Shown: piece after piece, positions 13,751 through 31,485 of the stretch
Position numbering within the stretch: the first letter of the stretch is position 1
Layout: every line of letters starts with the position of its first letter
Origin: Microcaldota archaeon
GTDB lineage: Archaea > Micrarchaeota > Micrarchaeia > Micrarchaeales > CABMGC01
Reading direction: 5' to 3'
Assembly: GCA_021850805.1 (NCBI GenBank)
Contig: JAJZKO010000009.1
Location: forward strand, 1-33,497
Length of the DNA: 33,497 nt
Translations under genes and position numbers: made by a program
The notes under the pieces: generated by a model
Told to the model about the DNA's origin: nothing
What the model saw: only the letters and a program-made list of their open reading frames with translations
The model's database searches: none

Positions 13751-13781
13751 TCCAACACTCCTTAAAAAGTAACCCGCATTC

Positions 13782-14033: not shown

Positions 14034-14068
14034 GTAAATGTGCTAAAGTCACGCAATGGCGATACTCA

Positions 14069-14422
14069 ATGAATCCACAGGACATAAAGAGGGCAGAGAA
14101 GCTCAAGAAGCTGCTCGAGAGGGTTGCATTCGCTTCTCTCATAGTCGACATATCAATAGCGATAGTCACCCTGATATCCATAAACTTCGCGAAGCTCAAC
14201 CTCCTGCAGCTCCAGCTCATCCTGAACTATGTCCTGACATTTATAGTCATAATAGCTGTAGGGCTCTTCGCGATACTCCTCGCGATATCCCATTACCAGA
14301 GACTTCTCGACAACTTCGAGATCATAAACAACAAGGTGGTAAACTCTTTCCGCAGGCCTTTCGGCAGGTCTCCGCCTCCAAAGAAGGAACCTGAGCAGGA
14401 GCAGAGCGAGGTGCAGCACTGA
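14069..14422 (+). CDS. Small two-TM membrane protein
   Basis: The 117-aa protein has a basic N-terminus (MNPQDIKRAEKLKKLLERV), two hydrophobic helices (about residues 19-42 and 50-75), and a cytoplasmic tail that turns Pro/Lys/Glu-rich (RSPPPKKEPEQEQ). No family recognised. Its stop overlaps the start of the nucleotidyltransferase by one base (TGATG), so the two are translationally coupled and probably act together. One possibility is that it anchors sugar-nucleotide synthesis at the membrane; that is inference. Confidence 0.75.
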   Translation: MNPQDIKRAEKLKKLLERVAFASLIVDISIAIVTLISINFAKLNLLQLQLILNYVLTFIVIIAVGLFAILLAISHYQRLLDNFEIINNKVVNSFRRPFGRSPPPKKEPEQEQSEVQH

Positions 14423-15111: not shown

Positions 15112-15755
15112 GCCTGCTTCCTCGCCTTCCTTAGCTTGTCTATCATCTTGCCGTAAGAATCCTTTCTCTTCGATATGACTCTTACCCTGCGGTTCTTCCT
15201 TGATACCATATCCTTCATCTCCGCAAACCTCCTTCTGCGTATGATCCTGACAGGAAGGAAGCTGTATCTCTTCAGTTCCTTGGAGAGGCTCTCCAGCTCC
15301 TTCGCTTCAGTCGCATATAGCTCCTCCGCCTTCTCCTTCTTGGAGAGAAGATCGAGGAGCGTTATGTTGTAGTATTTGTCAAGCGCATCCGGTGTATTGG
15401 ATTTTGTCACAAGGCCGTATATGAGAGGCATGGTGAGCCTGCTGCCTATCTTCATTGCATATATCTCCGCAAGCACCTCAACAGTATTCATGTACCTTAT
15501 CATATCTGCGCTGTGCATATCCTTGGATCTGGCAACTATCTGGTTCAGGCATGTGAGCTCGTAATCCAAGCCGCCGAGTATGCCGCGCATCTTCCCTATG
15601 TGATTCTGCAGTTCCTCCCTGCTGTGCTCGCTGCTGCTTATCTTGAAGCTCAGGTCATCCTCGACTATCTTCCTGAATGCTGCAGCTACCAGATCACTGC
15701 CCAAAGATGCCTTATTGAGATTCTCGTCGCCTTTTCCAAGTTTTACCTGTTCCAT
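15108..15755 (-). CDS. Coiled-coil basic protein of unknown function
   Basis: The 215-aa protein is almost entirely helical with no membrane segment. Heptad-like stretches run at about 45-65 and 130-165 (KKEKAEELYATEAKELESL). The C-terminal 50 residues are rich in Arg and Lys (RIIRRRRF, SRKNRRVRVISKRKDSYGK), suggesting nucleic-acid or acidic-surface contact. It lies 48 bases downstream of secE in the ftsZ-secE unit, where many archaea have spt5/nusG, but it shows no NGN or KOW features. Not recognised. Confidence 0.7.
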   Translation of the reverse strand: MEQVKLGKGDENLNKASLGSDLVAAAFRKIVEDDLSFKISSSEHSREELQNHIGKMRGILGGLDYELTCLNQIVARSKDMHSADMIRYMNTVEVLAEIYAMKIGSRLTMPLIYGLVTKSNTPDALDKYYNITLLDLLSKKEKAEELYATEAKELESLSKELKRYSFLPVRIIRRRRFAEMKDMVSRKNRRVRVISKRKDSYGKMIDKLRKARKQA

Positions 15756-15803
15756 AAATCCAACCCTGCTCCCGTGGGAAGAGCAGCTGAACCAAATATG
15801 ATT

Positions 15804-16001
15804 TTACGAATAAACTATTAAACTTATCACTCCGGATATTATAAACGCAAGAATTCCCATTACAAGTATGCCGAGCAGGACTATCTTAAGTGTCCTCTTG
15901 AATGTATCCATATCTGGCCTGTAGCTCACCGACATTATATGCCTGGCATCGGAATTAAACCTCCTGAGCTTCTTTATGGGATTAAGTTCCAGAAAAAACA
16001 C
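15804..16001 (-). CDS. secE: Preprotein translocase subunit SecE/Sec61-gamma
   Basis: The 65-aa protein has a conserved amphipathic region (VSYRPDMDTFKRTLKI) followed by a single C-terminal TM helix (VLLGILVMGILAFIISGVISLIV), as in archaeal SecE/Sec61-gamma. A GTG start lies two bases after the ftsZ stop; the start could be slightly further in. The ftsZ-secE linkage is a known archaeal arrangement. Confidence 0.88.
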   Translation of the reverse strand: MFFLELNPIKKLRRFNSDARHIMSVSYRPDMDTFKRTLKIVLLGILVMGILAFIISGVISLIVYS

Positions 16002-16003
16002 CT

Positions 16004-17080
16004 TTAGTCAAAGATCTTATCGAGATCGGCAGTCGCTTCAAACTCCTCATGCTTTTTCTTCATCATGCCGAATTCCGTATACTCGGGGAACTCTACCCCG
16101 CTCATGACTACCATCAGCTTTATCGCACTCTTCTGCATTGACGGCTCTATCCTCGCCCCCCACTTGAGCAGTGCATCCTCGCTTATCCTTGACGAGACCT
16201 CCTGGAAAATGCTCTGCGCCTCCCTGAGCGTGAGGTCCTCCCCTCCCACTATGTTTACCAGAGCCTTCTTCGCCGTTGATATATCAGCATCCAGCAGCGG
16301 GCTCTTAAGCGTATTCTCTATCGCCACCATCGCCCTGTCATTAGTCTGCGAATTTGACTCGCCAATGCCTATCACCGCATACCCCGAATCCTTGAGCACA
16401 CCGCGTAGGTCTGCGAAGTCCAGATTAACCATGCCAGGCTTCGTGACCATCTCCACAATTCCTTTTGTGGCATTGGCAAGCACCTCGTCGCTTATCTTGA
16501 AGGCCATGTTAAGCGGAAGATCCGGCGCTACGGAGAGGAGTTTGTCGTTCGGTATTATTATTGTTGTATCGGTAGCCCTCTTCAGCCGCGCGAGCCCCTC
16601 GAGCGCATTCCTCATCCTTATCCTCCCCTCCCCTGAGAACGGGAGTGTCGTTACGCCTATGGTAAGCGCACCGGCTTCCCTTGCCTCGTGCGCAAGCACT
16701 GGCGCTGCACCAGTACCAGTCCCGCCTCCAAGGCCGCATGTGACAAAGACAAGCTGCGCGTCGCTTATTATATGCTTGACGTCCTCCTTGCTCTCCATTG
16801 CCGACTCCTCCCCGAGCTTCGGGTCGCTCCCCGCGCCCATCCCCCGTGTCGACTTCTTTCCTAGGAGAACTTTCCTATGCGCCCTTATCCTTGCGAGGTG
16901 TGCAGCATCCGTATTAGTGGCTATGAGTGTAGCACCGTCTATATTGAGCTCCGTCATGCGCGCGACGGTATTCGAGCCTGACCCTCCGGCACCAAGAACG
17001 TATATCTTGGGCTTGGCCGACTCTATGAACTTAAGCAGATCCTCGTCATCCTGCGAGAGGAAGTTTTCAGGCATGCGCAT
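16004..17080 (-). CDS. ftsZ: Cell division protein FtsZ
   Basis: The 358-aa tubulin-family GTPase has VLGAGGSGSNTV at the N-terminal nucleotide site (about residues 28-39), the tubulin signature GGGTGTGAAP at about 118-127, and the T7 catalytic loop NLDFADLRGVLKDSG at about 218-232. The N-terminal extension (PENFLSQDDEDLLKFIESAKP) is typical of archaeal FtsZ. The C-terminal tail after the core is short (MMKKKHEEFEATADLDKIFD) and ends in a conserved-looking acidic-hydrophobic peptide that could dock a partner such as SepF. Full length, no anomalies. Confidence 0.97.
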   Translation of the reverse strand: MRMPENFLSQDDEDLLKFIESAKPKIYVLGAGGSGSNTVARMTELNIDGATLIATNTDAAHLARIRAHRKVLLGKKSTRGMGAGSDPKLGEESAMESKEDVKHIISDAQLVFVTCGLGGGTGTGAAPVLAHEAREAGALTIGVTTLPFSGEGRIRMRNALEGLARLKRATDTTIIIPNDKLLSVAPDLPLNMAFKISDEVLANATKGIVEMVTKPGMVNLDFADLRGVLKDSGYAVIGIGESNSQTNDRAMVAIENTLKSPLLDADISTAKKALVNIVGGEDLTLREAQSIFQEVSSRISEDALLKWGARIEPSMQKSAIKLMVVMSGVEFPEYTEFGMMKKKHEEFEATADLDKIFD

Positions 17081-17116
17081 ACCTCATACTAAATTCCCTG
17101 ATAAAGCATATAAGAG

Positions 17117-18121
17117 TTACCATTCTACCTTTATGTAATTGGTCCTTATGTCAAGGTTCCTGAAAGGAAGGAGCCCCTTTATTACTCCAGTTATCCCTGC
17201 ATATGATATCTCTATATCCTCTTTATTGAAGATCCTCTGGTGATGCTTCACTGCTCCCTCGAGAGCCGCCTCCTTTCCCTTAAACAGCGCTATTCCAAAC
17301 GATCTGTAGCTCCCGCTGATCGGCGCAACGAACTGGAAGGTATTCAGCAGAGGATTGTGGTCATCAGCATTCATATAACTCTCCCGTGCAAACGCAAATC
17401 TTGTCGATGTGGTTGTCTTGTTGAACTTGTAGTTTATGAAGTACGACATCGGGTATAAGCCGGCAGGCTCCTGCACTGCAATGGTGAAGCGCCTTATGAC
17501 CTCGCTCTTCCGCAGGGTGAATATCCTGTACCTTATCGTGTCCTCCTTCATCTTTAGCTTCTCAGCCATCTCCCTGTATCCCATCCTGGAATCCTGGTTG
17601 AGCAGGCCCAATATGCGCTTGTCATCCTCGTCTATCTGCTTGTTGTGCTTGTCTATGAAGCCTACGAAATCGTTGCTGAGCGGCATGTACCCAAAGTGCG
17701 CGAATACGTATTCCGACGGACGTATCACAACCCCGTATTCGGAGAGCTCGGAAGCCACCTTTGTCTCCCACCTTATGTAGTCGATAGGATTCCCGGTTAC
17801 CGCATATATAAGCAGGTCGTAATCCCCTTCGGTAAGGTAGACATTCTGGGAATACATATCTGCGCCGAAGAAGTCCCTGAGCACCTTCTCCTCCGGTTTT
17901 CTGGCAAACTTCACCATCACTATATGCCTCTCGCTTATCCCCAGCCTGGATGTGTTGAGTTCCAGAGTGAACCTTATCTTTAGCTTCTCCGTCAGCCTGC
18001 GCAGCAGCCTTGAGGTTGTTATCCGCGAGCATCCTATCTGTTCTGAGAGGTTGGTAATGGTGGACCTTGAATTATTGCTAAGTTCCCGTAGGAGCATGCG
18101 CTCCTTCTCATCGATTTCCAT
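17117..18121 (-). CDS. Lrp/AsnC-like transcription regulator with two HTH units
   Basis: The 334-aa protein carries two tandem Lrp-type units. An HTH at about 3-48 (MLLRELSNNSRSTITNLSEQ) is followed by a RAM-like beta-alpha domain. A second HTH at about 165-208 (RILGLLNQDSRMGYREMAEKL) has its own effector-like domain. Normal Lrp proteins are half this length. The duplicated form could fold as a pseudo-dimer in one chain. A TATA box about 25 bases upstream of the ATG implies a leaderless transcript. It is divergent from the 362-aa gene, so it may regulate that gene or itself. The ligand is unknown. Confidence 0.85.
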   Translation of the reverse strand: MEIDEKERMLLRELSNNSRSTITNLSEQIGCSRITTSRLLRRLTEKLKIRFTLELNTSRLGISERHIVMVKFARKPEEKVLRDFFGADMYSQNVYLTEGDYDLLIYAVTGNPIDYIRWETKVASELSEYGVVIRPSEYVFAHFGYMPLSNDFVGFIDKHNKQIDEDDKRILGLLNQDSRMGYREMAEKLKMKEDTIRYRIFTLRKSEVIRRFTIAVQEPAGLYPMSYFINYKFNKTTTSTRFAFARESYMNADDHNPLLNTFQFVAPISGSYRSFGIALFKGKEAALEGAVKHHQRIFNKEDIEISYAGITGVIKGLLPFRNLDIRTNYIKVEW

Positions 18122-18139
18122 GCTAATATATGCATCTCA

Positions 18140-18150
18140 AAATATAAATA
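18140..18150 (-). promoter_or_regulatory. TATA box of the Lrp-like gene
   Basis: On the minus strand TATTTATATTT is centred about 25 bases before the ATG at 18121, consistent with leaderless transcription. Confidence 0.6.
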
Positions 18151-18200
18151 CCTTGACAGAATCCTAAAAAATTTCAAACATTATTCTATAATGCTCTTAT

Positions 18201-18210
18201 TTTAAATATT
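18201..18210 (+). promoter_or_regulatory. TATA box of the 362-aa gene
   Basis: TTTAAATATT is centred about 24 bases before ATG 18229. Together with the minus-strand box it makes a 107-bp bidirectional promoter region. Confidence 0.55.
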
Positions 18211-18228
18211 ATCTTAGGCGTAAAATAA

Positions 18229-19317
18229 ATGTACCTATTTGTGGTCTTTATGCAAGATGCACCCAACAACATGGAATTAGTTGGAGCCATGACAGAAGGC
18301 AGTTATGGCGGCAACGCACAGGGCACTGCTTCTTCCCAGGAGCTCTCCAGCCTGAAGAGCCTACACCGCAACGATGACAAATGCGCTGCGTGGGATTCTC
18401 TTGACGCGTACTCGAGCCTTAAGAGCGTAAGCATGTTCTTCTCAAGGCATGCGAAGGCAGTCAGCGGCAGCCCTTCTATAATCTTCCTCGACAACTCAAG
18501 GAGGAAGGATAAGCTAAAGATGAAGCTGGGATTCTCCGTGAAATATGACTACAGGGACAACGCGATATACATAAACCCAAACACATGGAAGAAAAACAAC
18601 TATACTGAAGTACTCTCCTCCAAGATATCGAGCTATTCGTCCTACTACTCCATATACCGGAACACCAACGCAGGGCTTATCGCAAGGGAGTACTTCAAGT
18701 ACATACTCAAGAATCACTATTCCGGCCCCGATTCTGCGCTAAGCAAGGTATTCTCCAGCGTAAGGAAGGTAAAGAGCGTAGCAAAGATAGGTGCCCCAGA
18801 AGTGGACGTAATAGTGCAGGGAGCCGGCGCGAGGTTCTTCGAGCTTGCATTCCGCGTATCTGAAGAGTTTGATATGCTCGATGCCGCATACGGGATAATG
18901 AGCAGGATGGGCATGCATCCAGTCTCAAACCTCACCATGGTAAGGGCGATCGCGATGGGCAAGGAGAAGACCAAGAGCTTCGAGGATTTCAGGAGCTACT
19001 TCACCAGGCTGCACAGGATGCGCAGGATAGAGGCAGAGGAGATACTCGCCACACTTGCCTTCATAGAATCTGACCTGGACATAAGCCAGACGATAAAGAC
19101 GTTCCTCAGGCCTCCGGAGGAGGCATTCAAGAGGATCTACTACCTGGCAGTTGCGAAGAGCGACAGGGTAAGCGAGCTTGCGGAGCGCATACTAGAGCAC
19201 AGGCACAACCAGAGCAGGGACATATACTCTGCAGAGTTCAGGAGGCTGACAGAGGACGAGTTCGACTACATGCACAAGTTCGTCAGGCTGCACCTCCATT
19301 CCAAGAAGCAGTACTGA
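18229..19317 (+). CDS. Conserved-looking helical protein of unknown function
   Basis: I do not recognise this 362-aa protein. Residues about 1-60 look unstructured. About 80-150 is a beta/alpha segment (SIIFLDNSRRKDKLKMKLGF), and the rest is helical and positively charged (TRLHRMRRIEAEEILATLAF), like an alpha-solenoid. There is no TM or signal. Starts at 18229 and 18250 (MQDAPNNMEL) are both possible; the TATA distance favours 18229. It precedes a permease on the same strand by 32 bases and is divergent from the Lrp-like regulator. Confidence 0.75.
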   Translation: MYLFVVFMQDAPNNMELVGAMTEGSYGGNAQGTASSQELSSLKSLHRNDDKCAAWDSLDAYSSLKSVSMFFSRHAKAVSGSPSIIFLDNSRRKDKLKMKLGFSVKYDYRDNAIYINPNTWKKNNYTEVLSSKISSYSSYYSIYRNTNAGLIAREYFKYILKNHYSGPDSALSKVFSSVRKVKSVAKIGAPEVDVIVQGAGARFFELAFRVSEEFDMLDAAYGIMSRMGMHPVSNLTMVRAIAMGKEKTKSFEDFRSYFTRLHRMRRIEAEEILATLAFIESDLDISQTIKTFLRPPEEAFKRIYYLAVAKSDRVSELAERILEHRHNQSRDIYSAEFRRLTEDEFDYMHKFVRLHLHSKKQY

Positions 19318-19349
19318 AAGGATCATATTCACCACGCGCAGGCACTGAC

Positions 19350-20639
19350 ATGAGATTGAAGACCAAAGGGTATATTGCAATAGCCATAGCCGTAATAGAG
19401 CTGGCATTTCTCCCCATAATGATAGAGATAGGCGCCAGCGGCATAGGCAACATTCCCCTCGCCTTCTACATATTCATGTTCTCCTCTGTAGCCGCACTGG
19501 CGATAGGCTACAGGCACGACAAATTGAGCGGAGTGAAGAAGATAATAACCTCGCGCAACATGCTGATCATCATACTCATCACAGGCCTTCTTAATGATGC
19601 AATATCGCAGATATTCCTTGGCGTAGGCACTCTGGGCACGAATCCCAGCGTTGCAGCAATAGTCTTCAGGAGCTGGGTGATATTCGTGGCCCTTCTCTCC
19701 CCTCTGGTCCTAAGGCAGAGGATAACAGGGAAGCAGCTATTCGCCACGATCCTGGGATTCTCAAGCGTATTCCTGATAATGGCAACAGGCCCTTCACTCT
19801 CCCTTAACCTGACCCAGCTTCCGTTCATAGCTGCGCTCCTTATCGCTGCATTATGCGCCACATCCTCAAATCTCCTCATGAAGGTCTACAACGCAGATCC
19901 CGTGTCTTCGGTGGTGCTCTTCAACATCGTCTCCTTCGCCTTCCTCGGGCTATTCGCCATATCCTCAGGCGTAAATCTGGCAATAAGTCTTAACGCAACC
20001 GATATCCTTACGATAGCCTTCCTCGGCGTAGTGAGCTACGCGATAGGATCCAGCCTCTATTTTTACGCCCTGAAAATATTCGGGCCCGTATTCCTAGGCA
20101 ATGCGATACTCTCCGTGCCATTCCTCACCATAGCGTTCTCGGCTCTGACCCTAGGCACTCCTCTCTCACCTATATACATCGGCGCGGCAGCCCTGCTCAG
20201 CGCAGGGATAATACTGCAGAGGCGCTTCAGCTCCAATGCGCCTAGCTACATAAGCTCGAAGGGCCGCTCTTCCTCAAGCAACAAGTCATACGGGAAGATA
20301 TACGACATAAGCGGCGCCTTTGTGGGGAACAGGGGAAGTGAGATAAGGATGAGTCTGTCCAGCACCAACAAGGCCCTTGCGATGCGCCTTCCTGCAGATA
20401 CCACATACGATATAAACGGCAGGATAGGCAACCTGGGCGAGTACGACTGCATACTATTCACTACCGCCTCACCCCATTCTGAAGTAGCCCCCGAAGAAAT
20501 CGAATTCATAAACAATGTAGTGGGCCTCTCAGGCAACGAATACGCATTGGTAGGGATCGGGAATGCCAGCGTAGTGGAAGACGCATTCGATTATATTGCA
20601 GGCGAGGCAGCAAAGAAACCAGGTGAAGCTGGAGCATAA
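19350..20639 (+). CDS. EamA/DMT-superfamily permease with a C-terminal soluble extension
   Basis: The 429-aa protein has about ten TM helices in two EamA-like halves over residues 1-295. The end of the second half reads AIGSSLYFYALKIFGPVFLGN, with SAGIILQRRF closing the last helix, typical of drug/metabolite exporters. An extra region of about 130 residues follows (about 300-429). A Ser-rich linker (SSKGRSSSSNKSYGK) leads to an alpha/beta domain (DCILFTTASPHSEVAPEEIEF) that I do not recognise. Ordinary members stop near residue 300. The extension may be a sensor or regulatory domain. Substrate unknown. Confidence 0.82.
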   Translation: MRLKTKGYIAIAIAVIELAFLPIMIEIGASGIGNIPLAFYIFMFSSVAALAIGYRHDKLSGVKKIITSRNMLIIILITGLLNDAISQIFLGVGTLGTNPSVAAIVFRSWVIFVALLSPLVLRQRITGKQLFATILGFSSVFLIMATGPSLSLNLTQLPFIAALLIAALCATSSNLLMKVYNADPVSSVVLFNIVSFAFLGLFAISSGVNLAISLNATDILTIAFLGVVSYAIGSSLYFYALKIFGPVFLGNAILSVPFLTIAFSALTLGTPLSPIYIGAAALLSAGIILQRRFSSNAPSYISSKGRSSSSNKSYGKIYDISGAFVGNRGSEIRMSLSSTNKALAMRLPADTTYDINGRIGNLGEYDCILFTTASPHSEVAPEEIEFINNVVGLSGNEYALVGIGNASVVEDAFDYIAGEAAKKPGEAGA

Positions 20640-20644
20640 TGCCG

Positions 20645-21391
20645 CTACCTTGCAGGCTTTCTGGATGTACTCCTCTTACCAGAAGTTCTGCGGCTGCCGC
20701 TTCTCTTTCTCGAAGGCCTTCGCGTGGCCCTGCTTTTTCCGCGTGCACTGCCTTTATTCGCAGCAGCTTTGCCAGTTGAACTTCTATTAACATCCCTCTT
20801 TCCAGCAGCAACAGATGCTGGCGCTTTCTTCTCAGATTTCGTGGAAGCATGTTTCCTGCTCCTTGTGTAATACCATGCAGCGGCAGCGAGTATAATCAGC
20901 AGCACCACTAATATAACATAAGGAACTATGCTCCCAACCGGTTTGGATGCAAGTATGGAGATATTTTTTGCGACACCGGCCTGCAGATAAGCCCCGCCGC
21001 CTATGGGCGTCGAATTGGATACCTCCGCTACGGAGACTATGCCTATCCATGACGTTCCCGGTGTGTCAGTAGAAGGCATACGTACGGTTATTGCCAGGGT
21101 CTCTTGCGTATGCCCTGCAACAGTGCCATTTGAAGGGCTGATGGTTATGTTGGGCGCTGTCTCGTTAAGGACGGTGCTTAAGTATCCAAGCGTGGCCACA
21201 AATTTTACTGCTGAATTGCCGGTATTGACTATGGTCATGTTCAGAGTCTGCGATGAACCAAGTGTCACATTGAAGTTTACCGGACCAGCAACCTCTCCAA
21301 ACTGCGCATAGCTAAGGGAAAAAATGGAAAATGCAAGAAATAAAAATGGCGCAAGCCTCAAGCCTGCGCTGCCATGCTTCATCTGGAACAC
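20645..21391 (-). CDS. Surface membrane protein with Ig-like ectodomain and long basic cytoplasmic tail
   Basis: The 248-aa protein has a signal peptide (LAPFLFLAFSIFSLSYA), an ectodomain of about 110 residues with the COG1361/NEW3-like pattern (LNMTIVNTGNSAVKFVATLG), and one TM helix (SIVPYVILVVLLIILAAAAWYY, about 152-173). The tail of about 70 residues is almost only Arg, Lys, Ser, Ala and Gly (GKSRATRRPSRKRSGSRR). That tail resembles histone-H1-like or SR-type basic tails and would lie in the cytoplasm, where it could bind DNA, RNA or anionic lipid. It follows the small secreted protein gene by seven bases. Function unknown. Confidence 0.78.
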   Translation of the reverse strand: MFQMKHGSAGLRLAPFLFLAFSIFSLSYAQFGEVAGPVNFNVTLGSSQTLNMTIVNTGNSAVKFVATLGYLSTVLNETAPNITISPSNGTVAGHTQETLAITVRMPSTDTPGTSWIGIVSVAEVSNSTPIGGGAYLQAGVAKNISILASKPVGSIVPYVILVVLLIILAAAAWYYTRSRKHASTKSEKKAPASVAAGKRDVNRSSTGKAAANKGSARGKSRATRRPSRKRSGSRRTSGKRSTSRKPAR

Positions 21392-21398
21392 TCTGGGA

Positions 21399-21914
21399 TC
21401 AGCAGCTGTTCTCCAGTATTATGTTCTGGGTGTATGTTCCTGCCGCCTGGGCTACTGGCACATTAACGCCGAAGTATATACTGTTAGAATTTCCTGCTGG
21501 AACAACGGAGCTTGCGACAGGAGTGAGCGTGTTGCTAAGCTGCACGCCTGTTATTGCTGAGCTGCTGGAGACCATATTGTAGGTTGTGTTTGAGACGCCG
21601 AAACCCACAGAAGCCGTGAGTATCCAGTTGGTCCCTTCTATATCTATGGAATTTGCATTTGCATTGCCATTGTTTGTATCAGTAACCAAGACGTTTGTAG
21701 GGTGGAACGTTCCCGGAGCCACATTGCCGAATGTTATCGCATTAGGTGCGAGAGATATCTCGCAGACAGAGCTTACCACTACATTTGCCAGCACGTTGCT
21801 TGTGCTGCTCGTCGCGAATACGCTCCCTACCTGAGAATAAATCAAGACAAGCAATGTAAATGCCGTAAGGCCTATCTGCATTATCAATAACCTTATGCCG
21901 CTTCCTATTTTCAT
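21399..21914 (-). CDS. Small secreted protein sharing the C-terminal domain of the 2188-aa adhesin
   Basis: The track starts at 21959, but that ATG lies upstream of a strong TATA box (21945-21954). ATG 21914 (MKIGSGIRLLIMQIG) lies about 35 bases downstream of it and gives a proper signal peptide, for about 171 aa. The mature part is one beta-rich domain bracketed by Cys (VCEISLAPNAITFG ... IILENSC, the last residue). It aligns with the end of the large neighbour: both contain CxISL, FG..xPG, DTNxG, GVSNT, IYFGVxVP, AQxAG and end in ENSC. The paired Cys probably form a disulphide. It has no membrane anchor, so it may be a partner or subunit of the surface structure. Confidence 0.75.
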   Translation of the reverse strand: MKIGSGIRLLIMQIGLTAFTLLVLIYSQVGSVFATSSTSNVLANVVVSSVCEISLAPNAITFGNVAPGTFHPTNVLVTDTNNGNANANSIDIEGTNWILTASVGFGVSNTTYNMVSSSSAITGVQLSNTLTPVASSVVPAGNSNSIYFGVNVPVAQAAGTYTQNIILENSC

Positions 21915-21944
21915 AATCTGCACCAGATGTATCTCATGAGCAAA

Positions 21945-21954
21945 ATATATAAAT
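21945..21954 (-). promoter_or_regulatory. TATA box of the small secreted protein gene
   Basis: ATTTATATAT on the minus strand lies about 35 bases before the preferred ATG 21914 and downstream of the track's ATG at 21959. It therefore helps to fix the start. Confidence 0.55.
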
Positions 21955-21980
21955 ACCATGTCAGGTATGCCACAAATCCA

Positions 21981-24900
21981 TCAGCAGCTGTTCTCTATGG
22001 TTATGTTCTGCCCGTATGCGCCCGCCACCTGTGCATTTGGCACTCCAACCCCGAAATAGATGTCATTACTGGCTCCGGCTCCTACATCTATAAGAGTGTT
22101 GTAAGGAACCGAAGTGAGAGGGTTAGCAGAAGAGTAACGCGTTCCCGATACGGCATCCCATACGGTATTGCTAACTCCGAAGCTGTTGCTGCCGTATATC
22201 CAGTTGGAGCCGAATACATAAATGTAAGAAGGTGCAGTACCTGTGTTTGTATCTATTATTCCCTTATTTGTTGCTTCAACCCCACCAGGGACAAGAGTGC
22301 CGAAATTAATCTTTGTGCTATTCAGCGATATGGTGCATGTAGCTGAGGAAACAACAGGCGCAGCGCCGAAAGATGTTTCCGGCATCACCCCATTAGGAGG
22401 ATAGGCCCTTACTCTTACCCACTGGAAGAGCGTGGAGAAGGAACCTACTGCATCAGGCCCTTCCACCTCTACCCCTACAGGTTCGCTTGAGATGCTAGGT
22501 GCAGGAGACGTGCTGAAGATGGCCTTATGGTAATCAAAGAACTGCCTCTCGTTTCCCGTGCCCAGCCAGGCGCTGCCCATTATGCCATTTACCGTCTCAG
22601 AGCTTATGTTGCTGGCAACATATCTGGTGCTATTGGTAAGTATATAATATGGCCTCTGGTTCACGCTGAGGTTCTCTATATTATATGCATATCCTGTATT
22701 AACTCCATCGACAAGACCCGAGACCGCACCGGTTCCTATAAACGGTCCAAGCTCGTCAGCAATTATGTTCATATCAGTTGACTTTGCATAAATCTCTACC
22801 ACTGACGGGTTTGAGATTGTAGTTAGAGACTGGACATATGTATAGTTTAATTTCCCTGTTGCCGTCGGCGCCTCTGTGAGAGTAAGCCCATTGTCCACAG
22901 AAAGTGATCCATAAGAACCTATGCCTTCTTTCCATTTGCTCGTATTTAGCGCCGTGCCTGTAAAATTATCATAAAGCGCAAAGACATTCGCCCCGTTGTC
23001 ATATTCTCCGTAGGAGGGGCTGAGCTGCGGCGCCTCGCCCGTAAGATGCGCATTCAGGAGATTGTTCGAAGATGAGATGACGTTGCCCGCAAAACCCATA
23101 AAGAGTTCCAGCGAGCCCCGTGCAGGTACCCCGTTCTTAATCTTAAGCCAGTAGACTATGTCATTGCTCGTATAGAGATTGGAACCCTGCATCATGTTCG
23201 ATGAATTTCCTTCCATCCAGCTTGGTATTACGGATCCGCTTGCGTTGAAAAATTCCACATTGTTTAAGTTGCTAGTTGCGTAGAGCGAGTAATTAAGGCT
23301 GTTTACTACAAGCATCTGCTGGAACGGCGCAGGCGTGGAAGAATTCTGGAGATTGCAGAGCGTCAACGGGAAGTATTTGACTATGCCTGAAGGAACGGAA
23401 GAGGGTGCGGAGACGGTGCTTCTGCATGAGAAGACAGAGGCGAATGTGGTATTCCCTGCCCTGAGCGTTCCGCTCTGCACCTTTGCAGACTGCAGGATAG
23501 TACTCTCGGATACGTTAGGTATCGAGAACTGGTAAGATCCAGGCGCAGTAGAGAATACTATGTTGTTGGGCACCACCGCGCTCTCCGTGACCCCATTATA
23601 TGTTACGCTCCACGTCTCCCCATTATCAAAGAGCCCAAATTCCCTGAAGCTTGTAAGAGGCGAGGATGATACTACAGTGCCGAAGCGTGCGCGAGGCATT
23701 ACCCCATTAGGGGGATACGCCCTTACCCTCACCCACTGGAATGTCGCATACCAGGGGTTTGTAGAGCCTCCGCTTACTCCTGTTGCCTCTACCCCTATCG
23801 GCATAGGCTGAAGTTTGTTGCCTGTATTGTCCCATGTGGTGACCCTGCTGTAGTTATAGTACATCGCTTCACTGCCTGTAGCCAGCCAAACGCCGCCCAG
23901 TATTCCGTTGAGCGAGAAGATAGGCGCAGGATACCTGTCCATGTATGTTGTATCGTTCGCAAGGAACCATGTAGGTGCGAATGTATATGCGGGATTGGCC
24001 GAGGTATTCGTCAGAAACAGATCCCAGTAAGCGTATCCTGAGCTAATGCCATCCCCGGCGCCGCTGTATCCCACTCCGGTAAAAGGCGCAGCTCCCTGAT
24101 AGTTGGTAGTCATTATGTTCGAATTCACATCAGTCTCTACAATCTCCGGATTCGAGAAACTTGTCAGTGACTGCACAAAAGTAATGTAATTATCCTTCTC
24201 CCCTATTGTCAGTCCATCATTCACACTGTAGCTCCCTCCAGTTCCTGTAGTCTCAGACCACTTGCTGGTATTGAGTGCCGTGCCCCGGAAGTCGCTGTAG
24301 AAGTTGAAGACCCTGTAGCCGCTGTCATATTCCGCGTAAGTGGGAGAGAGCTGCGGCGCCTCTCCTATATTATTCCCGTTGAAAAGGTTAGTCGCCTTAG
24401 ACGCCCATCCCATGAAGACTGTTGAGTTTGCATTAGAAGGTATGCTGGCCGAGAGCCTGAGCCAGTAAATGGTGTGGTAAGAGCTGTTTGTATCGTTGGT
24501 CTCAAGCCACGAGGGCACTACAGTCCCATTCCCGTAAAAGAACTCCACATTCTGAAGGTTCCCTGCCTCATAAGCAGAGTAGTTTGAGCTGTTTACTACA
24601 AGCATCTGCTGGAACGGCGCAGGCGTTGCAATAGTTTGGTTGTCTGTGAAATTTATCGGAACATATGCCGATATGCCTGAAGGCACAACCACCGCACTCT
24701 TCGTGAAAGTCACGTTTGTCGTATTGCCTGCTACGAGATACCCGCTGCTCACTGACGGTGTGTAAAGGAATCCCCCTATGCTCCGATCGGGTATGCTGAA
24801 AAGATAATTTCCAGGCGCCGTGGTGGTTCCTACTCCGCCAGGTGAGATCCCATTAAATATCTCAGAATCGTAGGTCACGCTCCATTTGTATCCACTGGGA

Positions 24901-27900
24901 AGGCCTACCTCATTGAATATGCTCTTCACACTTGGTGCTTCTACTGCAGCAAGCTCTGAAGCCGCGCTACCAGCAGGTCCTGGAACTGCAGTCGCAAACC
25001 CGGAACTTGTGAAATTTATTGAGTATGTTCCCGCGCTCTGGTTTAGGCACTCTACAGCCCAGGCACCTGCGAATCCAAAAGAACCTGAATAATTCGAATT
25101 AGTTATAGAATTGCATCTGTTGTTAGGCAGCTTTACTGGCAAAAAAGTGGAATTGCCTGTCGATGCAACTATATATACATCGCTGCCAGAGGTTGCAACA
25201 GTATACGTAAGCACGGAGTTGTAAGAGCCTGCCGCATTTCCGTTTCCGGTATAAAATGTAAGGCTGCTAGGGCTTGCGTTTATCGCAATTCCGCTGATTG
25301 CGAATCCCTGCGCTGCGGAAGGCGAGCTTGCATTGCCGACATTATATGTAGAATATCCCACACTTGAATTATCATAATAGTCCGTTGTTGTACGCCCCTT
25401 AGTAGTACTTCCGGAAACTACCGAGTCTGAAGCCTCAACAGTCCAGTTTACGCCCATGCCTGCGCTTCTATTGTTCCCTCCGTCACCTGCCGCATAGATG
25501 TATGTTTTGTACCCTGTAGGGAGCCTAAGTGAGATGCTGCCCTGTTCGACAGAGCTGTTCGTGCTATTGGCATATGAAATATAAGACTCCGTGCCTCCGT
25601 TTAAAGTGTATAACTTCACGAGACTGCTCAAAGCGGGATAAGCCCGCAACCTCACCCACTGAACTTCGTAAGTGCTGTTCTGGGCAAATCCCCCTATATT
25701 CAATGGGAATGCAGGTATTCCCGAATTCGAGGTTATAAATCCAGTATAATTCACCGTTGCATTAACCGTAGCAGTATTGTTCGCCGCAACCCTTATGGAA
25801 TAAAGCCGGTATCCGCCAAACGCCAATCCCGTAACCCTATGGATAGTAACAGAGTTCCACGTCAAAATGCCATATACTTCGGGGTTAAGCCCCGTCCCCC
25901 CAATGACGCTGAGATTTGTATTTCCGTTAGATGGATTGGGGGATGTTGACATGTAACCAAATGTGCTCCATTGGCAGCATGGTTGTGACGGGGAGAAATT
26001 CCCGAAGAAGTCAAGTACTCCCTGCCCAAGCTTCTTAACTGAGTAAATCTCAGGCGTGTTGCCAATCGCACCTGTCTTGCCGCTCTTTACAACCGTAAGC
26101 CCGTTGTCCACAAGGATCTTGCCGTATCCTGTATTTACCGTATTGTTTACCCACTTGCTGGTATTGAGTGCCGTGCCCCTGAAATCGCTGTAGAAGTTGA
26201 AGACATTATAACCGTCATCGTATTCCGCATAGGACTTGCTTAGCGTTGGGTTCTCGCCTGTAGTTATGTTATTCAATAGATTGGTGCCCCTATAAGCGAA
26301 GCCCATGTATACCGTTTCTTTGCTATTCGCAGGAAGCCCATTCGGAAGCTTTATCCAGTATGTGGTATTCCACGATTTGTTGAGATTTCCGGATTCAGAA
26401 TAATTGTATATATAATTTCCATTCTCAAGCCTTCCTGATTCCAGCCAGGAATTTATCACCGTGCCGTTCCTGTAGAAAAACATGACATTCTGCATATTTG
26501 GGGCTTCCCAAGGGGTGTAGTTCAATCCGTTCACAGCCACCCGCTGCTGGAACGGCGCAGGCATTGCGTTATTGTTTAAGTTCACTATCTCTATCGGCAC
26601 ATAGTACACTATCGGTACAGGGACCACGAAAATGTTCGGATCCTCCGCGCTATAATTCTGGCTTGAAGATGAGCTTAGGTATACGGAGATATTGTCCCCT
26701 ACCGGTATGTTGGTGTAATTTAGGTATTCGGAGAGATTGCCTGTCGTGTTGGAGCCCTGCCCGGCAATACGGGAGCCTTCAAAAGCACTCCAGGAATAGC
26801 CAAGCTTATTTCCTGCTTCAATAGTCGAGTATAAGTGCAGGCTTATGCTGTAGGTACGCTGCAGAGGGTTTACCGGGATGTAAATCTTCCCTGTCGCATT
26901 AGGCGCCCCGAATCCCGCGCTATCTACATTTACCATAAGATGCGGAATTCCTTTAGCAACATCTACCTGCTCCATAATCTTTCTCCCAGTTCCTGGATTC
27001 ATTACAGTAATGTTATATGTTCCAGGCGTGAGGCATGTCTGCGAACCTCCAGAACAGACGCCATATTCCACAGTTCCATTCCCAGTTGCGACCATCGCAC
27101 CGTCAATCTTTATAATTACGCCCGCATTCCGGTTGGATGCCCTTGCCCTTATAGCGAATACCTCCCCATACGCGGCATACGCCGGCAGCTGTACGCTTAA
27201 TGATGGGACGGCGCTTGCATTGCCTATGTACTCATGCGGCATTACTCCGTCAGGAGGGTAGGCTCTGGCGCGAATCATGGCAAAATATGCAGGGTTTGTA
27301 AGACCTGCCCAGGTTACTATACCTGCATACTTGTCTTGCGTTCCTATCAATGAACTGCTCGTTGTGCAGTTTGCAACAATGGCACCTCCCTCCTCAGGGG
27401 TGCGATTGTAAATGTAAGAAGCCAGGTCAGTGCCATTCACTATTCCCTCTATCCAATACCAGCCTGGCTGCCTGCTTCCAGTGTTGCAGAGCGCAGTGTT
27501 GGCTCCTGAAGAAAGATAAGCCACTATCGCCTCGTCCCCCATCCACCCGTCCCCTATTATATAATTGCTTAGCGATGAATCTGAGCTCCCTCTAACAGAG
27601 AAGAGCGCATTCAGGTTGGTTCCTATATTGCCCCAGCCTTCAACGACAAATGAGTTGTAACCCAGTGGCACATTACTCCATGCTACTGTCTCAGGCGACT
27701 TTGATGTAGACCCATTTCCGGTTATCTGTATAACGTTGGAAGGAAACCCGTAAGGGCCAGTCATGGATATGCTGCTTAGCATGCCTCCATTTGCAAGCGA
27801 GAGGTTTCCCGTGCCGCTGCCATTGTAATACATGCTGAATACCGATGCTCCGTTGTCATACCTCCCATATACCTGCGAAAGCTGCGGCGCCTCGCCAGTG

Positions 27901-28547
27901 CCCTGCCCATTCATAAGAACTTCGCTGAGATTTGCAAAGCCCATGTATACAGTCAGGTTAGAATCTGCAGCAATACCTGAACTTATGTTCAGCCAGTATA
28001 CGGTATCCGTTGATGTATTCAGTCTGCTTGCATTCTGCGGGTCATTGAGTCTTATATTCGAGGCGCTTCCTTCGAGCCATGAGTTTATCACGGTGCCATT
28101 ATAATAAAAAAATTCTATATTACTCAGGTTCCCTGCCTCCAGATAAGCATACTTTGAGCTATTTACGTAAATCTCCTGCTGGAATGGCGCCTCAGTGCTT
28201 ATGTTCTGTGCATTGTCCAGCCTTATCGGTATATAATATTCCACAGCAGGCGGAAAGCTAGCTGCAGCCTGTGCGCCTGAATTGCTATAGTATACCGTGC
28301 CGTTTGAATATCCTGGAGATACCTTTATCGATGAGCTGTAGTCCTTCCCATTCGGCGCAGTAACTCCGTAAGCGGTGTACGCGCCTGCAGAAGTATAATT
28401 ATTGCTGGTATTCTGGAGAGAATTGGACGTTCCAGAGAAGTAATATACGCTACCATGCCAATCATGCCTGACATTCACCGCGCCAAGCAAGAAAGCGGCT
28501 CCAAAGGTAATCACAAGAAGCATTACCAAAGCGGTATACCTTTCCAT
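21981..28547 (-). CDS. Giant secreted repeat protein (DUF2341-type adhesin)
   Basis: The 2188-aa protein has an N-terminal hydrophobic signal or anchor (ALVMLLVITFGAAFLLGAV). Four large units then begin near residues 105, 640, 1290 and 1720. Each has a DUF2341-like start (for example YYIPIRLDN ... APFQQEIYVNSSKY), a W/Y-rich core (VINSWLE, VYWLxI, VYMGFA), GEAPQLSxxYxxYDNG, and then a concanavalin-like beta segment (FYSDFRGTALNTSKW) closing with VRxRAYPPNGVMP. Ig-like linkers separate some units. The last 120 residues form a Cys-bracketed domain shared with the 171-aa neighbour. There is no C-terminal TM. Dozens of N-glycosylation sequons suggest a heavily glycosylated outer-surface protein. 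DUF2341/ConA-like folds usually bind carbohydrate, so host or biofilm adhesion is the likely role. Confidence 0.85.
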   Translation of the reverse strand: MERYTALVMLLVITFGAAFLLGAVNVRHDWHGSVYYFSGTSNSLQNTSNNYTSAGAYTAYGVTAPNGKDYSSSIKVSPGYSNGTVYYSNSGAQAAASFPPAVEYYIPIRLDNAQNISTEAPFQQEIYVNSSKYAYLEAGNLSNIEFFYYNGTVINSWLEGSASNIRLNDPQNASRLNTSTDTVYWLNISSGIAADSNLTVYMGFANLSEVLMNGQGTGEAPQLSQVYGRYDNGASVFSMYYNGSGTGNLSLANGGMLSSISMTGPYGFPSNVIQITGNGSTSKSPETVAWSNVPLGYNSFVVEGWGNIGTNLNALFSVRGSSDSSLSNYIIGDGWMGDEAIVAYLSSGANTALCNTGSRQPGWYWIEGIVNGTDLASYIYNRTPEEGGAIVANCTTSSSLIGTQDKYAGIVTWAGLTNPAYFAMIRARAYPPDGVMPHEYIGNASAVPSLSVQLPAYAAYGEVFAIRARASNRNAGVIIKIDGAMVATGNGTVEYGVCSGGSQTCLTPGTYNITVMNPGTGRKIMEQVDVAKGIPHLMVNVDSAGFGAPNATGKIYIPVNPLQRTYSISLHLYSTIEAGNKLGYSWSAFEGSRIAGQGSNTTGNLSEYLNYTNIPVGDNISVYLSSSSSQNYSAEDPNIFVVPVPIVYYVPIEIVNLNNNAMPAPFQQRVAVNGLNYTPWEAPNMQNVMFFYRNGTVINSWLESGRLENGNYIYNYSESGNLNKSWNTTYWIKLPNGLPANSKETVYMGFAYRGTNLLNNITTGENPTLSKSYAEYDDGYNVFNFYSDFRGTALNTSKWVNNTVNTGYGKILVDNGLTVVKSGKTGAIGNTPEIYSVKKLGQGVLDFFGNFSPSQPCCQWSTFGYMSTSPNPSNGNTNLSVIGGTGLNPEVYGILTWNSVTIHRVTGLAFGGYRLYSIRVAANNTATVNATVNYTGFITSNSGIPAFPLNIGGFAQNSTYEVQWVRLRAYPALSSLVKLYTLNGGTESYISYANSTNSSVEQGSISLRLPTGYKTYIYAAGDGGNNRSAGMGVNWTVEASDSVVSGSTTKGRTTTDYYDNSSVGYSTYNVGNASSPSAAQGFAISGIAINASPSSLTFYTGNGNAAGSYNSVLTYTVATSGSDVYIVASTGNSTFLPVKLPNNRCNSITNSNYSGSFGFAGAWAVECLNQSAGTYSINFTSSGFATAVPGPAGSAASELAAVEAPSVKSIFNEVGLPSGYKWSVTYDSEIFNGISPGGVGTTTAPGNYLFSIPDRSIGGFLYTPSVSSGYLVAGNTTNVTFTKSAVVVPSGISAYVPINFTDNQTIATPAPFQQMLVVNSSNYSAYEAGNLQNVEFFYGNGTVVPSWLETNDTNSSYHTIYWLRLSASIPSNANSTVFMGWASKATNLFNGNNIGEAPQLSPTYAEYDSGYRVFNFYSDFRGTALNTSKWSETTGTGGSYSVNDGLTIGEKDNYITFVQSLTSFSNPEIVETDVNSNIMTTNYQGAAPFTGVGYSGAGDGISSGYAYWDLFLTNTSANPAYTFAPTWFLANDTTYMDRYPAPIFSLNGILGGVWLATGSEAMYYNYSRVTTWDNTGNKLQPMPIGVEATGVSGGSTNPWYATFQWVRVRAYPPNGVMPRARFGTVVSSSPLTSFREFGLFDNGETWSVTYNGVTESAVVPNNIVFSTAPGSYQFSIPNVSESTILQSAKVQSGTLRAGNTTFASVFSCRSTVSAPSSVPSGIVKYFPLTLCNLQNSSTPAPFQQMLVVNSLNYSLYATSNLNNVEFFNASGSVIPSWMEGNSSNMMQGSNLYTSNDIVYWLKIKNGVPARGSLELFMGFAGNVISSSNNLLNAHLTGEAPQLSPSYGEYDNGANVFALYDNFTGTALNTSKWKEGIGSYGSLSVDNGLTLTEAPTATGKLNYTYVQSLTTISNPSVVEIYAKSTDMNIIADELGPFIGTGAVSGLVDGVNTGYAYNIENLSVNQRPYYILTNSTRYVASNISSETVNGIMGSAWLGTGNERQFFDYHKAIFSTSPAPSISSEPVGVEVEGPDAVGSFSTLFQWVRVRAYPPNGVMPETSFGAAPVVSSATCTISLNSTKINFGTLVPGGVEATNKGIIDTNTGTAPSYIYVFGSNWIYGSNSFGVSNTVWDAVSGTRYSSANPLTSVPYNTLIDVGAGASNDIYFGVGVPNAQVAGAYGQNITIENSC
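23298..23336. repeat. 39-bp exact DNA repeat within the adhesin gene, copy 1
   Basis: This is identical to 24588-24626. It encodes the PAPFQQMLVVNS segment at the start of the fourth unit. Confidence 0.8.
24259..24311. repeat. 53-bp DNA repeat within the adhesin gene, copy 1
   Basis: This matches 26152-26204 at 51 of 53 bases. It encodes the FYSDFRGTALNTSKW segment of the third unit. The identity is much higher than between the surrounding unit sequences, suggesting gene conversion or recent exchange. Confidence 0.8.
24588..24626. repeat. 39-bp exact DNA repeat within the adhesin gene, copy 2
   Basis: This is identical to 23298-23336, at the start of the third unit. The two copies lie 1290 bp (430 codons) apart, the length of one full unit. 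Confidence 0.8.
26152..26204. repeat. 53-bp DNA repeat within the adhesin gene, copy 2
   Basis: This is the partner of 24259-24311 with two mismatches, in the second unit. It could mediate deletion or expansion of about 1.9 kb in frame. Confidence 0.8.
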
Positions 28548-28637
28548 ACTCTATTACTCTCATCCCTTTCTAGAATGCGCCTCTACTCGCACCTACCTGG
28601 TATATACACAGCAAAAAATTAAACCCATACGCATAAC

Positions 28638-29399
28638 TCATCTGGTAAACCTTCCCATAATCCTGGAAATAAATCCGCCTTCAGCCCCTCCTTCCTTTCC
28701 AGAAAATCTCAATGCCATCTGCCTTATGTCTTTGCAGAACCTCGAATTCTTTTTCATCGCATAGGCAGCAATTCTCTCAGAGACGCTGATAGGCACAATA
28801 CTATCCTCTCGGAGTACGCAAAAGACTTTATTGCCGTATATCTCCTCAATCTCGCGTATGGTGAGCTCATAGCTCATGTTCTGCACCCTGTTTACCACCA
28901 GCCTCTGCCTGATGCCAAACTTCCTGTAAACCTTCGCAAGCCTCATCGCACTGGTGCATGAGGGAAAATCAGGAGTGGTAAGTATAAATGCCTCATCGTA
29001 GGACCTTACTGCTTCCTCGGATATTATCCCAGGTGCGGTATCTATAATTACAAAGTCAAAGTTTGTGCTCCTTAGGTTCTCTGCAAATGCGTGCACATCC
29101 CTGTCATTCAGGCTGACCTGTCGGGCGCTCAGTCTTCCGGGAAGGACTATCAACCCAGTCCTTCTGTCCTTTACCACAGCCTCGGAAATCTTCGTTCTGC
29201 CCCTTATCACTTCCAGAGATCCTGCCTCTATATCCTCAAGCCCCAAGTCTATCCCTATGGAAGGATTGGTAAAATCCGCATCCACGAGAAGGACGCTCTT
29301 CCCGATCTGCTCCAGGGCAGCAGCGAAATTAACTGCTACTACCGTCTTCCCAACGCCTCCTTTCTGTGATGATATCCTTATAAGATACGGTTTTCCCAT
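28638..29399 (-). CDS. MinD/ParA-family ATPase with amphipathic C-terminus
   Basis: The 253-aa protein has deviant Walker A SQKGGVGKTVVAVN at residues 11-24, LLVDADFTNPSIGIDLGL (switch region), and Walker B FVIIDTAPGI at about 116-125. The last residues, GGFISRIMGRFTR, form a short amphipathic helix like the membrane-targeting sequence at the end of bacterial MinD. This predicts ATP-dependent membrane binding. The ATG directly follows the stop of the 670-aa surface-protein gene, so the two are co-translated. That suggests positioning of a surface structure rather than chromosome segregation. No MinE or ParB partner is visible. Confidence 0.85.
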   Translation of the reverse strand: MGKPYLIRISSQKGGVGKTVVAVNFAAALEQIGKSVLLVDADFTNPSIGIDLGLEDIEAGSLEVIRGRTKISEAVVKDRRTGLIVLPGRLSARQVSLNDRDVHAFAENLRSTNFDFVIIDTAPGIISEEAVRSYDEAFILTTPDFPSCTSAMRLAKVYRKFGIRQRLVVNRVQNMSYELTIREIEEIYGNKVFCVLREDSIVPISVSERIAAYAMKKNSRFCKDIRQMALRFSGKEGGAEGGFISRIMGRFTR

Positions 29400-31412
29400 C
29401 TACTCCCCTCCATCCTCCATCTCTCTCTTTATCTTCTCAAGCCTCTCAACCCTCCACTTCCTGTATACGGGCCTGCTGCGAATCTTAATTATGCTCGCCA
29501 CTATGATCAGGAGCCCAAGCGCGGCCAGAATGCCCCTGTAAGCATATCCAAGGAATCCGGAGTAGCCTACGTTCACGGTCGGCTCCACAGGTATAGTTGT
29601 AGTCGTAGAAGTGTATACCTGCCTTGCAAGCACATCCTCAGTAACAGTGTAGCTCTTTGTCCTATTCCCTATGGTAATGTTGATATATGCGGAGTATGAT
29701 CCCGGCGAATATCCTGCAACGAATGGGAATCCTCCATCCACCGCGCTGTCAGGTGCAAGATGGTATTCTTCCGCACCCTTGCTTAGGTATATCCCACTAG
29801 GGGCATACGCCGATATCAGCACGTTTGCTTCAGACGCACCAGTATACACGAAGGAGAAATTTATGGAGCCATCTGCGCCAGTATAAACAGGCACAGAGGC
29901 AAAACTTACAATAGCCGCAGAAGACGAGAAAGTGAGGCTGCGCTGGTACTCAAGCCTCTCTGTGGATTGCTCGAGGAGATAGGGGTCTGAGACATTGGAT
30001 ATCGAATAGTATACGTACTTATCAGCCGCTGCTGCAGGAATGCTCCAGCTTATCACATAAGAGCCGTTGCTGTAGCTCACATAGTTCGGGAATCCGTACG
30101 CCTTTATGTCTGAAGCTGAATTTGTGATTGCCTTAGGGATATACACCATCAGCGTGTAGTTGTACAGGCCTGTCGAGTTTACGCTAAGGTTAACATTTAT
30201 CCTTCCCGAGACATTCGTATAGCTGTTTGAGGCGCTCAGCTCCTCTGTTATCGCATGCCCCGTAGTGCTGGAATTGTACATGTAAAATTCATAATATGAA
30301 GTCGAGTTGTAAGATGATCCGTAAGTGCCCCTTGCAGATACTGTTATAGGCACACTGTATACTCCCTGCACATCCCTGGAAGCTGTGAAGGCGATGCTTA
30401 CAAACAGCCTCTCCCCCGGCGCAAGGTAGCCCCTCCCTGAAGATATGTTGGCTACATTCCTGTATCCGAATGGGGTACTGACATTTATGTACTCTCCTAC
30501 CGTACCGTTGTTCTTAATCTCCATCTGCGAATACACAGTCTGCCCAAACGGCGCAGATACGTAAAACGGCACATACAATATCTCAATATGCGGCGGAGGC
30601 GGAGGCGGCGAGCTTGGCTGCTGCGGCTGATTGCTGAAGACCGTATACGAAGAGGTAAAATTATTGCTTCGCAGCCTCAGCCCTCCTGAAGAGTAATTCA
30701 TGTAAATGATCATGGTATAGGTGCCTGTGGCACCACTGACTCCGTTAAGCACAAAATCCTGGGATCCGCTGCTTCCAGGCGCCAGACCATTAACCGGAAA
30801 AGAGTAATCCCTGCTGATAGGCCCCCTTACCTGTATATATAATGTATCGTTTACGGAAGAAAGGTTTCCCCTGTTACTCTCGTTTACCTGCAATCCAATC
30901 TGCGATCCCTGTAGTATGCTCTGCTGCATCTGCACGGGCCCTATAATCATATTCGCAGGCAGGAGCAGCGCGAATCTTGCAGTACTTTCATTGTGATAGC
31001 CCACATACGAGACGTTAAAGACCGCTGTATAATTCCCGTATTCAAGCGTTGACGTGTTCACCTCTAACGTATTGGACTGCACCGCTCCAGAGGCAGGGGG
31101 AAGAGGAAACTGCTTGTAATACACGAGCGAGTCTGCAGGCTGACGGTACAGGCTTATGCTTCCGTTTAGCTCTGACGTAGTGCACCCTCCGATGGAATTG
31201 TACGAATACGGAAACGATGCGTTAGTCCCTATCACATAAAATGCATTCGCAGAGACTGAGACATGAAGCCCGCAGAATACCGTCACGTTAGCGGCTATGC
31301 TACTTCCGCTGCTGGCAAAACCCGAGCCAGAAAAGAACAAGAGAAAAGCAATAATGCAAAGCGGTAAATGCGGATTGCGATGTCTATTACAATGTATGCC
31401 TGCACCCATCAT
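29400..31412 (-). CDS. S-layer-like type I membrane protein with Pro hinge
   Basis: The 670-aa protein has a signal peptide (about residues 15-34), a glycosylated ectodomain of several Ig/COG1361-like repeats, and a poly-proline stretch (SSPPPPPPHIEIL) at about 268-280. A Thr-rich stalk (TSTTTTIPVEPT) precedes the C-terminal TM helix (ILAALGLLIIVASIIKI). A basic cytoplasmic tail of about 35 residues (YRKWRVERLEKIKREMEDGG) ends the protein. The tail reaches the cytoplasm, where the co-transcribed MinD-like ATPase could contact it. A TATA box about 24 bases before the ATG implies a leaderless mRNA. Exact role unknown: structural surface layer, pilus base or adhesin receptor. Confidence 0.82.
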   Translation of the reverse strand: MMGAGIHCNRHRNPHLPLCIIAFLLFFSGSGFASSGSSIAANVTVFCGLHVSVSANAFYVIGTNASFPYSYNSIGGCTTSELNGSISLYRQPADSLVYYKQFPLPPASGAVQSNTLEVNTSTLEYGNYTAVFNVSYVGYHNESTARFALLLPANMIIGPVQMQQSILQGSQIGLQVNESNRGNLSSVNDTLYIQVRGPISRDYSFPVNGLAPGSSGSQDFVLNGVSGATGTYTMIIYMNYSSGGLRLRSNNFTSSYTVFSNQPQQPSSPPPPPPHIEILYVPFYVSAPFGQTVYSQMEIKNNGTVGEYINVSTPFGYRNVANISSGRGYLAPGERLFVSIAFTASRDVQGVYSVPITVSARGTYGSSYNSTSYYEFYMYNSSTTGHAITEELSASNSYTNVSGRINVNLSVNSTGLYNYTLMVYIPKAITNSASDIKAYGFPNYVSYSNGSYVISWSIPAAAADKYVYYSISNVSDPYLLEQSTERLEYQRSLTFSSSAAIVSFASVPVYTGADGSINFSFVYTGASEANVLISAYAPSGIYLSKGAEEYHLAPDSAVDGGFPFVAGYSPGSYSAYINITIGNRTKSYTVTEDVLARQVYTSTTTTIPVEPTVNVGYSGFLGYAYRGILAALGLLIIVASIIKIRSRPVYRKWRVERLEKIKREMEDGGE

Positions 31413-31430
31413 AATCCCATGCCCGCCAAT

Positions 31431-31440
31431 TAATATATAT
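31431..31440 (-). promoter_or_regulatory. TATA box of the surface-protein/MinD operon
   Basis: ATATATATTA on the minus strand is centred about 24 bases before the ATG at 31412. The gap to the divergent Mre11-like gene is only 73 bases, so both promoters share it. Confidence 0.6.
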
Positions 31441-31485
31441 CTTGCAGATTGATAAAATACTGCATCTTTCTGTCGCGGTGGTATA

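Follow-up and report, generated by a model that had tools for sequence, protein, structure and literature searches.

A possible undescribed surface fibre from a five-gene cluster of Micrarchaeota

The window analysed here is one contig (C24; 33,497 nucleotides) from a Micrarchaeota (DPANN) genome assembled to 883 kb in 25 contigs and 84% complete. Five genes lie together on its (-) strand and encode, in transcription order, ASH670, a MinD-like ATPase, a giant surface protein, a small secreted protein and TM248. ASH670 (29400..31412 (-); 670 aa), the first gene product of the cluster, is secreted, gives weak matches of the ASH/Ig-like kind and carries a TM helix at its C-terminus. The MinD/ParA-like ATPase (28638..29399 (-); 253 aa) matches the archaeal MinD model at E = 2.7e-35, below the cut-off of that model, and has a short hydrophobic and basic C-terminus that by eye resembles a membrane-targeting helix. 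The giant protein (21981..28547 (-); 2188 aa) combines an N-terminal signal/anchor, 80 N-glycosylation sequons and DUF2341 modules; it belongs to that family at 50.5 bits (cut-off 23.4; E = 2.9e-13), with three stretches in all, the best-scoring of which covers residues 1332-1431 (24255..24554 (-)). The small protein (21399..21959 (-)), recognized from its translation and its family across Micrarchaeota, is 186 aa long, or 171 aa if read from Met16 at 21914, and consists of a signal peptide, an N-terminal extension and a single Cys-bracketed domain with an ENSC end. Directly after it comes TM248 (20645..21391 (-)), a secreted protein with an Ig domain that is ASH/PapD-like at the superfamily level only, a TM helix and a Lys/Arg-rich tail. 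Elsewhere in the window (5760-8329(+)), two adjacent ORFs of 417 and 426 aa resemble carbohydrate-active enzymes by eye, and the first has a possible signal peptide.

The small and the giant protein share a domain of about 120 aa, which the alignment places at residues 66-186 of the former (Cys66 to the terminal Cys186; 21402..21764 (-)) and residues 2071-2188 of the latter (Cys2071 to the terminal Cys2188; 21984..22337 (-)). In a sequence search the giant C-terminus matches the small protein at 50% identity (E = 9.6e-22). A preliminary description of this DNA had already reported the shared C-terminal domain and the ENSC endings, and our translations and alignment bear out both, along with its coordinates and the two protein sizes. 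The assembly holds a second small/giant pair, 91% identical to that of the window, on contig C8 (L035, G000:C8, 1-19932). We considered and discarded a paralogy or local duplication within a single genome as its source: C8 is collinear with window positions 12892-32817 over its entire 20 kb at 85% nucleotide identity, and must therefore be the version of a second strain or species inside the assembly. Between the two contigs dS is about 0.3-0.9, and the FtsZ protein sequence is identical; this looks like one MAG in which two related strains or species are mixed. Comparison of the two versions reveals purifying selection on the small gene (dN 0.04, dS 0.59) as well as on the giant gene (dN 0.08, dS 0.92). 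Because both genes are under such selection and the pair recurs across Micrarchaeota, chance is excluded as the origin of their likeness. A giant domain resembles the small domain of its own locus more (0.53) than those of other loci (0.40), which fits either gene conversion or the matching of a common interface, and the data do not choose between the two.

The gene order of the window recurs across the loci we compared. A small gene is followed directly by TM248 at 43 loci (median gap 11 bp), ASH670 by the MinD gene at 31 (median gap 0), MinD by the giant at 21 and the giant by the small gene at 24. Some loci hold at least two small genes, some encode tandem small proteins with two domains, and in several genomes (G036, G042, G048) the giant lies on a separate contig or far off. 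Nearly all matches among named genomes have titles of the Micrarchaeota type; three MAGs are titled Marsarchaeota. The gene set is found in cultured strains too, Ca. Micrarchaeum A_DKE (L087) and ARM-1, both with complete genomes; in ARM-1 a tandem small protein is followed by TM248 at one locus (L095) and a domain-bearing giant is encoded at another (L049).

Several loci depart from the common plan. At L094:9866-13983(+), five domain-bearing small genes surround one TM248 gene, and a giant was not found in that 20-kb stretch. At L040:3744-5129(+), in genome G045, one ORF of 461 aa covers both MinD ATPase and small protein, with a signal/TM segment mid-way; in a sister species they are two genes 20 bp apart, and the ORF is either a natural cytosol-to-surface fusion or the product of a lost stop codon. 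The giants at L052, L063 and L070 carry many regular Cys pairs (C-x8-C, recurring at intervals of about 45 residues), unlike the giant of the window, and the largest frames with the domain, of about 3420 aa, belong to G212:C16:9307-9684 and G213:C3:70794-71171.

How widely the domain occurs bears on what it could be for. Of 295 genomes sampled within the phylum 93 have it, as do 21 of 37 close relatives whose genomes are fairly complete. Micrarchaeon cells possess an S-layer (PMC8975820; PMC11329633), and long, glycosylation-rich surface proteins like the giants could be lattice or anchoring subunits of it together with the small proteins, the domain providing the lattice contact. We find this improbable, since an S-layer would be expected to be more general than a domain restricted to part of the phylum, and since giants ranging from about 700 to 3400 residues are unlike a single lattice protein.

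What, then, is the role of the Cys residues that bracket the domain? Two sets of domains were assembled, one from relatives and a second from named genomes, the latter with a subset of 7 query sequences. Cys is found in most members at two alignment columns only, one close to where the domain begins and the other its last residue. The two residues come and go together: among 73 complete domains 66 have both, 7 have neither and none has just one (Fisher p = 6e-10, a guide only, as relatedness among the Cys-less copies makes the value overstate their independence). Each of the 7 Cys-less domains comes first in a natural two-domain protein and runs on into a linker. In fact, internal copies follow the same rule in both sets taken together (n = 20), with both Cys in 11, neither in 9 and one in 0; the 11 that keep the pair with a linker behind it comprise ten small-type copies and one giant. 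That giant (L065:6100-10443(-)) has the domain at residues 975-1108 of 1447, followed by DUF2341-like sequence and a Cys-less end. Of 42 mature small proteins with a single domain, 41 have two Cys and no more.

The preliminary description had seen in the terminal Cys itself a possible sorting, anchoring or joining element, and a sorting, lipidation or intermolecular cross-linking site would indeed account for its being always the very last residue of C-terminal copies. Yet the perfect co-variation with the first Cys and the two-Cys composition of the mature proteins predict a disulfide within the domain, which would leave no free thiol for anchoring or cross-linking, and internal copies retain the pair with sequence behind it. 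Moreover, we know of no C-terminal lipidation signal of this terminal-Cys form for secreted archaeal proteins. A modified or cross-linked terminal Cys is thus very improbable, and the residue is best explained, from the alignments, as one half of a predicted intradomain disulfide with the first Cys of the domain. This does not settle the matter of the C-terminus. Homologues with the domain in internal positions and no conserved terminal Cys had been named beforehand as evidence against a special C-terminal module; internal copies do exist, with both Cys or with neither, yet the copies at C-termini, 112 distinct ones (68 small, 44 giant), all end exactly at the Cys. Since none has a residue after it, the exact C-terminus is under constraint, and the disulfide alone does not account for this stop.

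By sequence, the domain stands outside every family against which we tested it (pilin, usher, WxL, camelysin). No Pfam or NCBIfam model matched it over cut-off, and searches of Pfam, NCBIfam and PDB sequences gave sub-threshold matches only (SCPU, DUF4402, NEW3, choice-of-anchor D and one Pam-pilin at 0.014). The SCPU pilin family had no match in the own genome and only sub-threshold ones in 4 of 36 domains (best 0.14). PapD_N, Usher and Peptidase_M73 (camelysin) likewise had no match in this 84% complete genome, and the WxL domain PF13731 was found neither there nor among the 36 domains at E <= 1. AlphaFold2 predicts a well-folded domain for the small protein (mean pLDDT 86), and about half of its top 50 PDB matches listed are subunits of donor-strand fibres, namely Caf1, Csu, TasA (fibre 8aur), CfaB, PapA and FimA; the same list includes Ig domains of glycosidases and ASH domains, and the Saci_0406-type thread is not among the 50. 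For the model of a tandem protein, the best query TM-scores among the matches listed went to 3f84_B, a CfaB-CfaB fusion (TMq 0.45), and to 6fjy, the tip adhesin CsuE (TMq 0.43), both spanning the two domains. Such matches are support rather than proof, because the Ig-like fold is widespread and the TM-scores, at about 0.4-0.5, are modest. The shared domain is thus predicted to be an Ig-like, pilin-like beta sandwich.

The second element is one that the preliminary description did not mention. Ahead of the first Cys, small proteins carry the motif V-x-A-x-V-x-V, in which every second position is hydrophobic or small; in the window it reads V-L-A-N-V-V-V (residues 56-62; 21774..21794 (-)), a candidate donor strand. 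The motif precedes 35 of 48 single domains and 30 of 39 tandem-derived ones (65 of 87 together, so that a quarter of small-type domains do not fit its strict form), and 0 of 42 giants, the giant of the window included. All 20 first domains of tandem proteins have Ala at -8 and Val at -4. AlphaFold2 predicts the extension as coil in the monomeric small protein, outside the folded domain. The model of the tandem protein L090 repeats this for the first of its two extensions (coil, pLDDT about 67), but shows the one after domain 1, at residues 187-195, as a strand in a block with pLDDT 82-93; the alignments behind the models were shallow (36 and 15 sequences). Sequence and prediction together thus describe a free, alternating-hydrophobic extension that is unfolded in its own domain. 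Conserved, free, missing from the giant and ordered only behind another domain, it is what donor-strand complementation predicts. In CsuA/B the donor strand shows the same alternation, and its removal stops polymerisation (PMC4654587). We propose that the extension is likely the joining element.

To explain these observations we envision a surface fibre, undescribed so far, that the cluster may build. The disulfide between the first Cys and the last residue would close the beta sandwich, and the small protein would be secreted as a pilin-like subunit whose N-terminal extension is freed by cleavage of the signal peptide. The freed extension would enter the domain of the next subunit as its missing strand, so that small proteins chain head to tail by donor-strand complementation. 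The giant, with an acceptor domain at its C-terminus and no extension, would be limited to one end of the chain; it could accept a strand without donating one, and act as a FimH-like terminal adhesin with its DUF2341 region reaching outward. TM248 would anchor or prime the subunits and might hold them by the invariant end of their C-terminus, and the MinD-like ATPase would position the machine. In archaic chaperone-usher systems the C-terminal carboxylate of the subunit is bound by the chaperone (PMC4654587), and ParA/MinD ATPases organise surface structures in bacteria and archaea (PMC11588486). We infer polymerisation, the tip position and parts for TM248, ASH670 and the ATPase, and on balance we consider this assembly of small subunits, adhesive giant, anchored TM248 and positioning MinD probable, if by no wide measure. 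It retains much of the module suggested earlier: the domain is indeed common to both proteins, and the joining of subunits fits best as its function, whether the small protein polymerises with the giant or caps it; only the terminal Cys drops out as the element responsible. A more specific version is possible but distinctly more tentative. It would make the structure a Micrarchaeota donor-strand pilus of an undescribed class, in which giant tips are meant for an archaeal host, TM248 replaces both chaperone and usher and reads the C-terminus, and a MinD is dedicated to the machine.

The main rival to the fibre is a surface platform without polymerisation, of the kind suggested by Firmicutes WxL clusters. 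Here the domain would be a docking module, the small protein its stand-alone copy and the giant its long, host-binding copy; TM248 would bind both in the manner of Firmicutes WxLIP, and strand complementation, if any, would take place between TM248 and the domain. The gene content does match that of a WxL cluster, with its domain-only small protein, large protein that ends in the domain and Ig-fold protein bearing a C-terminal TM helix, and AlphaFold2 has predicted a partner strand inserting into WxL (PMC10599100). The match to a cluster of small, large and WxLIP-like TM proteins is one of architecture only, the similarity of TM248 to WxLIP_PGBD being weak and limited to few members (one homologue at 2.5e-5, four at E <= 1). 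Against docking, the WxL domain itself had no match in this genome or among the 36 domains, and the tandem or multiple small genes per locus and the absence of the extension from giants fit a polymer better. To our knowledge archaea also have no peptidoglycan that such a domain could bind. We therefore consider docking without polymerisation unlikely, although it deserves to be kept in mind.

Should the fibre be a donor-strand pilus of such an undescribed class, it would be a candidate for the thin filaments on ARMAN-type cells. Thin filaments protruding from ARM-1 cells 'could represent archaeal pili' (PMC11329633), and pili-like connections have been described for ARMAN cells (PMC4110969). 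Type IV pili, reported in the relative Mia14 (PMC5498576), are an alternative source of the ARM-1 filaments. Our literature search pairing DPANN with donor strand, in a limited library, found nothing. If right, the proposal would extend the known donor-strand fibres to a lineage of DPANN and to a route that needs no usher. For host attachment in DPANN archaea the cluster offers a concrete candidate gene set in cultured strains, and the proposed mechanism is simple and testable with recombinant proteins.

How does the cluster compare with known systems? Firmicutes WxL clusters resemble it in the three-part gene content already described (PMC10599100). They differ in the WxL domain, of which there is no match here, in an Ig-fold partner with two Ig domains where TM248 has one, and in their envelope, which here is archaeal; the cluster described here also has an additional MinD ATPase and ASH670. 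TasA/TapA and the archaeal bundling pili are also donor-strand fibres of Ig or jelly-roll subunits with a helper protein, and 8aur is among our structural matches; here, however, the genome has no Peptidase_M73 match and a SipW-type gene was not identified in the cluster. The thread of Sulfolobus acidocaldarius (Saci_0406) is built from secreted subunits of Ig-like fold, linked to each other through an N-terminal strand, and its neighbour Saci_0405, of the same fold, is a proposed cap (PMC9715654). Archaeal secreted Ig-like subunits and joining by an N-terminal strand are thus common to both, the joining being described for the thread and proposed here. The neighbour of the thread is a small cap rather than a giant adhesin, no set of MinD, ASH670 and TM248 has been described for it, and it is a crenarchaeal system with no Pfam domain, in which isopeptide bonds (N-terminal Asp) occur rather than a terminal disulfide. 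Chaperone-usher fibres (archaic Csu with CsuA/B and CsuE; Caf1; CfaB of CFA/I) offer the longest list of likenesses: a predicted Ig-like subunit fold, an alternating N-terminal extension, a Cys pair in the domain, an adhesin with a C-terminal pilin domain, a nearby PapD-like gene and a conserved exact C-terminus. In fact, the Cys of archaic pilin domains are invariant (PMC4654587). The archaeal system differs in having no usher, no PapD_N match and no significant sequence similarity, in a PapD/ASH-like protein that has one Ig domain and is membrane-anchored, and in its giant adhesins of 700-3400 residues and its MinD ATPase. In its mode of action the cluster would have the Sulfolobus thread or the chaperone-usher fibres as nearest analogues, and in gene content it comes closest to the WxL clusters.
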